Below are positions 16,770 to 38,525 of a stretch of DNA of 52,758 nucleotides, one piece after another (position 1 is the stretch's first letter; every line of letters begins with the position of its first letter). The stretch is from Caldisericota bacterium (lineage in GTDB: Bacteria > Caldisericota > JANLFM01). The notes below the pieces were generated by a model that worked only from the letters and a program-made list of their open reading frames with translations, ran no database searches and had not been told where the DNA came from. Location: assembly GCA_024655865.1 (NCBI GenBank), contig JANLFM010000002.1:21647-74404 (forward strand). Direction: 5' to 3'. Both the position numbers and the translations under genes were made by a program.

Positions 16770-17035
16770 AAATAAAAAACCCCCTTCTTTTTATTCTTTA
16801 GGGACGGGAGGGGGTTCCCGCGGTACCACCCTAATTTGCCCCAAGAGCTCAAGCTACAAGAGGCAATCTCTAAGCCCTTTAACGAGGGCCAGACGGCTCG
16901 GCCTACTTACCTTAGTTCAGCCAGCGGCTCCCGAAACATTTCAGGCGCACTCCCTGACCGGCTTTCACCTTACCCGGTTCTCTGAGCAGTTGCGGGCACC
17001 TTACTCCCTTCGTTCATCGCCGAATTTTAATGGAA
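16770..17035 (-). promoter_or_regulatory. T-box riboswitch, methionine-type
   Basis: The minus-strand leader of metG contains the T-box sequence AGGGTGGTACCGCGGGAA (16832-16815), a GGGAGTA motif in the 5' side of stem I, and a stem I specifier region CCTGAAATGTTTCGG. Within it, ATG at 16939-16937 is the probable specifier codon and pairs with the CAU anticodon of tRNA-Met. A terminator follows. Known T-boxes bind uncharged tRNA and switch from terminator to antiterminator. The choice of specifier is by position and by the downstream gene. Confidence 0.9.
16771..16816 (-). terminator. T-box-controlled intrinsic terminator before metG
   Basis: AACCCCCT (16816-16809) pairs perfectly with AGGGGGTT (16785-16778), followed by TTTTTTATTT. 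The 5' arm immediately follows the T-box sequence and would be disturbed when the antiterminator forms. Confidence 0.87.
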
Positions 17036-37457: not shown

Positions 37458-38123
37458 ATGGGTGCCCTGGAACAGGTTATTCTTGACACTTTAGCTCAAG
37501 CCGGGATTTACGGGCCGCCAGTAAACATAGAAAAGGTTTTGAAGGTCCTGGGCCTAGATGACATATTTATCGATTATTCCAAACCCCCAATGGGGGGAAC
37601 TTCGCTTTTCTTCGACGACCTTAAAAGGAAGTGGCGGATTCGGCTTTTACCTTCTCTTCCCCCTGAAAGGCGGACTTTTGATCTGGCTCATGAGTGCGTG
37701 GAGTACCTGGCCCTGAGGGAGGAATTCAAGGGCCCTCACTATCAGATCAATGAGGGCGCGGCTGAACTGCTTATACCGAGGAAATGGGCGGAAGAATGCA
37801 TCCGAAAGAACGGGCTGGACCTTTTTGCCTTAAAGCGCTTGTTTTCCACAGCTTCATTTGATACCTGCGCATTGAGGCTTCTGCGCCTTTCGCCCTGGCC
37901 CTGTACCCTCGTTGTTGTCACGGAAAATGAAAAGCGGGTGATGGGGAGGAAGAAAAAGGCTGGCCTTTCTCCTGATGAGGAGGTTTTCGTGAACAGGGCT
38001 TTCCGGACACTGACCCCGCTTCTTACATCCAAGGGCAGAAAGTTGCTCAGGTCTTTTCCCATTCCTGACGAGAAAAGGCTTAAGATTAAAAAGGCTTATA
38101 TTTATGTCTGGGATCGCATTTAG
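37458..38123 (+). CDS. ImmA/IrrE-type protein with an altered zinc motif
   Basis: A 221-residue protein with the ImmA/IrrE (DUF955) arrangement: RTFDLAHECVEYLA followed by EGAAELLIPRKW. The canonical HExxH reads H78-E79-C-V-E82, with Glu in place of the second zinc histidine. Activity may be lost or use a different ligand set (His94 lies near). In relatives this protease cleaves the adjacent XRE repressor when a signal is sensed. The C-terminal 100 residues are specific to this branch. The start ATG directly follows the XRE stop. Confidence 0.78.
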   Translation: MGALEQVILDTLAQAGIYGPPVNIEKVLKVLGLDDIFIDYSKPPMGGTSLFFDDLKRKWRIRLLPSLPPERRTFDLAHECVEYLALREEFKGPHYQINEGAAELLIPRKWAEECIRKNGLDLFALKRLFSTASFDTCALRLLRLSPWPCTLVVVTENEKRVMGRKKKAGLSPDEEVFVNRAFRTLTPLLTSKGRKLLRSFPIPDEKRLKIKKAYIYVWDRI

Positions 38124-38132
38124 GAGGGGATT

Positions 38133-38360
38133 CTGGAGTACCTTACCGCACAACAATTAGCGATTCGCTGGAATGCTCCCTTGAGGGCCGTTTACGGCAT
38201 CGCTCTGGGTAAACACCGCTTTTCCTCTCTTACCGGTCCCTTAAATATTTACCAAAGGGACAAACGAACAATGTTTTCCCTGGAGGAGGTCATGGAATGG
38301 GAGAAGAAATTGGCCCGGTCAAAGATTCCCCTGGAACTCATAATCAACGAATTCAAATAA
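38133..38360 (+). CDS. Small HTH/excisionase-like protein with a probable CTG start
   Basis: A 75-codon open frame follows the ImmA stop codon. The only well-placed start is CTG 38133, 5 bases after a perfect AGGAGG (38122-38127); the first in-frame ATG lies much further in. The translated protein has YLTAQQLAIRWNAP (like the YLTAKEVA helix-turn-helix opening of AlpA/excisionase proteins) and FSLEEVMEWEKKL (like the recognition-wing RREDVEAWEK ending). It looks like a MerR/HTH_17-type DNA-binding protein, perhaps regulating the same intergenic region. Confidence 0.55.
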   Translation: MEYLTAQQLAIRWNAPLRAVYGIALGKHRFSSLTGPLNIYQRDKRTMFSLEEVMEWEKKLARSKIPLELIINEFK

Positions 38361-38431
38361 AAAACAGGGGCTGCCTGGCGGCAACCCCTGCCATGGGGGA
38401 GGTGGGAAGACAGGCTATTGGCAATAACCTT
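38356..38431 (-). ncRNA. Candidate small RNA between the HTH gene and the nuclease gene
   Basis: A minus-strand promoter (TTGACA 38467-38462, 18-base spacer, TATAAA 38443-38438) and an intrinsic terminator would yield an RNA of about 76 bases. It contains an exposed CCACCTCCCCC stretch that could pair with Shine-Dalgarno sequences, and its 3' end is antisense to the last codons of the HTH gene. No protein frame of note is present. It resembles no RNA family I can name. Confidence 0.55.
38359..38390 (-). terminator. Intrinsic terminator of the candidate small RNA
   Basis: On the minus strand CAGGGGTTGCC (38390-38380) pairs with GGCAGCCCCTG (38375-38365), one G-U pair, 4-base loop, followed by TTTTTT. 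The plus strand has no T-run after the stem, so it works only leftward. Confidence 0.7.
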
Positions 38432-38437
38432 GCATTC

Positions 38438-38467
38438 TTTATAGAGGAGAAAAATGATGGTTGTCAA
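38438..38467 (-). promoter_or_regulatory. Promoter of the candidate small RNA
   Basis: TTGACA (38467-38462) and TATAAA (38443-38438) separated by 18 bases on the minus strand, close to consensus. No coding sequence lies downstream except through the terminator. Confidence 0.6.
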
Positions 38468-38525
38468 GAGGGAAGTAAAATTTTTTTAAAAATTTTAACT
38501 TCCTGGCTGGAGCTTGAATAAAAGG

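Follow-up and report, generated by a model that had tools for sequence, protein, structure and literature searches.

An AlpA-like HTH gene and a PD-(D/E)XK gene of a Caldisericota bacterium are separated by a gap in which promoter-like and terminator-like elements occur on the minus strand, raising the question of whether this gap holds the gene of a small RNA (sRNA) and how such an RNA would act. Within the window, that is the whole 52,758-nucleotide stretch of DNA that was analyzed, the reading frame of the HTH gene runs on the plus strand and stops at position 38360, that of the PD-(D/E)XK gene begins at position 38514 at the least, and none of the window ORFs is located between promoter and terminator (Table 1). 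The HTH gene itself probably starts at a CTG codon, a start that escapes ORF lists limited to the common start codons.

Table 1. Coordinates of the sRNA gene, its parts and other features. Positions are those of the window unless a contig is named.
Feature	Position	Strand	Remarks
-35 element TTGACA	38462..38467	-	Seen in the sequence; exact TTGACA in 9/9 copies, five genomes
-10 element TATAAA	38438..38443	-	18-nt spacer to -35
sRNA transcript, ~73 nt (putative)	38359..38431	-	Both ends predicted from promoter position and terminator; start at ~38431 from promoter position
5' hairpin, 8 bp	38412..38430	-	Predicted fold; built from different bases in other copies
Ultraconserved core, 56 nt	38360..38415	-	54-56/56 identical bases for every pair of copies compared, three genera
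CACCUCC	38398..38404	-	Inside C-rich, mostly unpaired stretch, ~38411-38393
Intrinsic terminator hairpin	38363..38392	-	U tract to ~38357; stem sequence invariant
AlpA-like HTH gene	38122-38360	+	Probable start CTG at 38133 after AGGAGG; GTG in same position in congener
T-box leader (RF00230, 110.6 bits)	16797-17026	-	Directly 5' of methionyl-tRNA synthetase-like gene (start ~16752)
Gene taken to be DUF3795-like	L076 12220-12552	-	Same genome as window
Short tandem repeats near sRNA copies	L015 660-1066; L012 882-1172, 3545-3856		G002

By its sequence the sRNA promoter is of the housekeeping type. It is passed over by an automated promoter scan because its -10 element ends in A and, taken alone, the TTGACA/TATAAA pair of the window could have arisen by chance; conservation, as judged from sequence comparison, decides in favor of a real promoter. 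The terminator stem comprises 13 pairs, 8 of them G-C, closed by a 4-nt loop and followed by a T run. A fold of -34.8 kcal/mol was predicted for a stretch of 101 nt at this locus (z = -3.7 relative to shuffled sequences).

A DNA search of 61 genomes returned nine copies of the sRNA, distributed over all five examined genomes of the bacterium's uncultivated family (G000 to G004) and three genera, and no comparable match outside these five. One copy each was found in G000, G001 and G003 and three each in G002 and G004. The nine are not independent events and represent roughly five separately diverged lineages. All nine carry an exact TTGACA and a TA-containing -10 element at 17–18 nt spacing, for which the chance estimated from shuffled upstream sequence is 0.0003–0.0019 per copy. 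Outside the window's genus, the spacer of all seven copies measures 17 nt and the -10 element reads TATCCT, TATATT, TATGAT or TATAGT; the congener has TATAAA. A CC(C/T)N stretch is also present 5' of TTGACA in most of the nine copies and may represent either an extension of the promoter or a regulator site.

The core of the gene, GCCTGTCTTCCCACCTCCCC[C/G]ATGGCAGGGGTTGCCGCC[A/C]GGCAGCCCCTGTT, is nearly identical between genera, two of which (G001 and G002) have 16S rRNAs that are 91.6% identical. Between the -35 element and the core, identity among paralogous and inter-genus copies was 0.43–0.62 compared to 0.45–0.49 for shuffled sequence, i.e. at or near the shuffled level. Promoter hexamers and core have been kept while spacer and flanks have diverged, a pattern which argues, on sequence grounds, for an RNA gene that is transcribed independently, strongly selected and conserved across the family. 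The original prediction of an sRNA with its own promoter and terminator and no gene inside is borne out by the nine conserved copies and its coordinates were correct; promoter and hairpin, checked in relatives for poor conservation, were both found to be conserved.

The same pattern argues strongly against a repeat or the remnant of a mobile element that happens to contain a terminator and no functional RNA gene. Copies at several separate sites in G002 and G004 would fit such a remnant, but the promoter hexamers have been retained next to diverged spacer and flanks, each of the three genomic positions of the sRNA is common to more than one species, and no core match was found in viral contigs, where a scan returned a single 18-mer attributable to chance. 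We regard this explanation as highly improbable. Near the sRNA copies of G002, short tandem repeats were observed, visible in reading frames through recurring peptide motifs such as CLVAGG, RGLSSC and CHAAAG.

Coding capacity could also be considered as the source of core conservation, in the form of a small ORF (MAGVAARQPLFF...) that begins at an AUG before the terminator and in whose frame both core substitutions are synonymous in the alignment, these being two cases only. The AUG has no upstream Shine-Dalgarno (SD) sequence however, and a shared stop is absent, as only three copies end in ATT-TGA/TAA. The frame crosses the U tract of the terminator and its stop therefore lies at or beyond the end of the transcript. 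A small ORF is accordingly hardly credible.

Three genomic contexts of the sRNA were distinguished. In the first it lies upstream of the trigger factor gene, in the second it converges on a radical SAM gene, and in the third, which comprises the window, G001, G003 and one copy each in G002 and G004, it is located in an HTH/ImmA-like neighborhood; in the window, G001 and G002 the PD-(D/E)XK gene flanks it on the opposite side. Two of the three contexts converge on the 3' end of the neighboring gene and the sRNA is therefore not the leader of a downstream gene. The convergence with the HTH gene that is seen in both the window and G001, together with the recurrence of the HTH/ImmA-like neighborhood in G003, G002 and G004, could point to a cis-antisense regulator of the adjoining HTH gene, and the RNA had indeed been described as antisense to the 3' end of that gene. 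The overlap with the ORF amounts to roughly two bases of the stop codon however, and the same core is found near the trigger factor and radical SAM genes without such a neighbor. Neither substantial overlap nor constant linkage with the HTH gene was observed, the antisense claim did not hold and cis regulation of this kind is very improbable.

Within the predicted transcript, eight of the nine copies are predicted to form a 5' hairpin, with energies between -5.5 and -6.5 kcal/mol; the exception is copy G002a. The leader, from the transcription start to the core, varies between copies yet pairs with a constant GCC(UGUC) arm. Compared to shuffled leaders, p values of 0.0035–0.04 were obtained for seven copies, and one of 0.12 for G004a. 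Between the two hairpins lies the C-rich stretch UGUCUUCCCACCUCCCCC, for which a mean unpaired probability of 0.63–0.92 was calculated across copies from predicted folds; the lowest value belongs to G002a, where CACCUCC is predicted to be roughly half unpaired. CACCUCC is present in every copy and is the anti-SD sequence of the 16S rRNA 3' end GGATCACCTCCTTTCT, which was identified in G001 and G002. The CCUCC patch to which attention had been drawn is thus real, mostly unpaired in predicted folds and part of a heptamer common to the 16S 3' end.

Potential targets of this patch were searched for in roughly 25% of the window genome and, for the congener, in approximately half. A properly placed SD-type GGAGG was found upstream of 139 of the 458 sampled genes. 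Complementarity extending beyond this was no commoner in the five genomes than for a reversed control. Duplex energies calculated for the 458 genes, whose starts came from a crude gene finder and are in some cases misplaced, gave no signal over patches with shuffled flanks. In 192 ortholog pairs the flank-shuffled and fully shuffled versions of the patch were likewise not beaten, and no conserved target stood out. Targets suggested earlier in the window did not gain support from these calculations: AGGAGGGG of the HTH gene forms a weak, interrupted duplex of -16.4 kcal/mol, and the values for the DUF1659 and DUF2922 genes, -19.5 and -18.7 kcal/mol, are at the generic SD level that is reached by many genes. 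The most striking candidate site, the ribosome-binding site of the gene that we take to be DUF3795-like (GGGGAGGTGAGAAGA-ATG), matches the complement of the sRNA in 14 of 15 bases directly before the ATG in the window genome. It was rejected as a conserved target, since a search for the gene drew a blank in G001 and gave only weak matches elsewhere.

These results bear on whether the RNA might regulate translation in general by imitating the 16S 3' end and, in certain conditions, competing with ribosomes for strong SD sites without preferring particular targets. The seven bases identical to the anti-SD and the lack of a preferred target in the search are in line with this. The patch reaches well past the anti-SD however, and its invariance extends to these outer bases, which points to pairing of a more specific kind; we consider a general mimic improbable.

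All copies have the same terminator stem sequence and no covariation was seen in it. A plain terminator would not usually be so constant, nor does SD pairing explain it. This constancy could be accounted for if, instead of pairing with SD sites, the RNA worked mainly through a protein, or another RNA, bound to the whole of its invariant core with the terminator hairpin included. Nearly all 56 core bases, with both terminator arms, are conserved without covariation and target enrichment was not found, both of which are consistent with such binding. On the other hand, a C-rich anti-SD stretch is a known working part of many sRNAs, the core has no GGA motif for CsrA, and no protein partner is known; binding in place of SD pairing is in our view rather unlikely. 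Recognition in addition to anti-SD pairing, in which the whole core including the terminator stem of a new, family-confined sRNA is read sequence-specifically by an RNA chaperone or partner RNA in cells where Hfq is not recognizable, would explain a conservation above that of 16S rRNA; it is put forward tentatively and as an unlikely option only slightly easier to accept. Sites complementary to the terminator arm were also searched for: all exact sites coincide with the sRNA loci, as does one in G003 that has a single mismatch, and other sites with 3 mismatches were somewhat commoner than for the reversed control.

C-rich sRNAs that block SD sites are established in other bacteria, examples being LhrC, RoxS/FsrA and NfeR1 (PMC4132741, PMC8216469, PMC10746234). 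LhrC of Listeria is present in five copies under LisRK control and has three CU-rich sites, its C-rich (UCCC) motifs binding a G-rich region upstream of the start codon without a requirement for Hfq (PMC4132741). The Caldisericota sRNA resembles it in its several homologous copies, in its C-rich motif and with respect to Hfq, for which searches of the family's five genomes were negative while their controls were positive. It differs from LhrC in having 1–3 copies, a single C-rich stretch and housekeeping-type promoters. C-rich regions also characterize RsaE/RoxS, FsrA and CsfG of Firmicutes, and their use on target mRNAs has been shown for RoxS and FsrA (PMC8216469). The Caldisericota sRNA has such a region but belongs to a different phylum and gives no Rfam match at a useful score. 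The alpha-r14/cuckoo sRNAs of alphaproteobacteria, e.g. NfeR1, carry an ultraconserved anti-SD motif in unpaired regions while their stem sequences vary (PMC10746234). An unpaired ultraconserved anti-SD motif is likewise found here and the stem variation is matched by the 5' hairpin, whereas the terminator stem is invariant; furthermore, CCUCCUCCC is placed in three hairpins of the cuckoo RNAs as opposed to the single CCCACCUCCCCC stretch between two hairpins in Caldisericota.

Searches with the Rfam 15 covariance models placed no family in the sRNA region at gathering score, and matches on the sRNA strand at E values up to 10 were sub-threshold, at chance level and not credible. RsaE/RoxS, LhrC, alpha-r14 and the other Rfam 15 families therefore did not claim the RNA by covariance model. 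A covariance model built for the sRNA itself produced no convincing hit among the 49 remaining genomes of the phylum; weak hits on L022 and L023 turned out to be ordinary terminators 3' of other genes. Beyond the family, no copy of this sRNA was found in 386 genomes including other phyla under strict filters, by which weak matches may be lost. In an exact 18-mer scan of 85k GTDB species, full cores were recovered only from MAGs titled Coprothermobacterota (Lac Pavin) and Caldisericota A05DMB09. Other 18-mer matches outside the family were attributed to chance, being without promoter or terminator.

Taken together, the locus is best read as a new family of a known kind, trans-acting and SD-blocking, where the SD blocking is what we infer. 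We assign a probability of roughly 0.68 to a stand-alone gene for a ~73-nt trans-acting sRNA, present in 1–3 copies per genome, whose C-rich stretch blocks SD sites without Hfq. The C-rich stretch would pair with G-rich ribosome-binding sites on several mRNAs, and pairing would block initiation of translation and hasten mRNA decay, with no need for Hfq. The 5' hairpin and the terminator may shield the ends of the RNA, and paralogous copies, each with a promoter of its own, would allow the same RNA to be made under different conditions.

As a literature search turned up no paper in which Caldisericota and small RNA are both named, this looks like the first well-supported sRNA family of the base-pairing type for the lineage. 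It would extend multi-copy C-rich anti-SD sRNAs past Firmicutes and Proteobacteria, to genomes in which Hfq was not found, and the invariance of its terminator stem raises a testable question.
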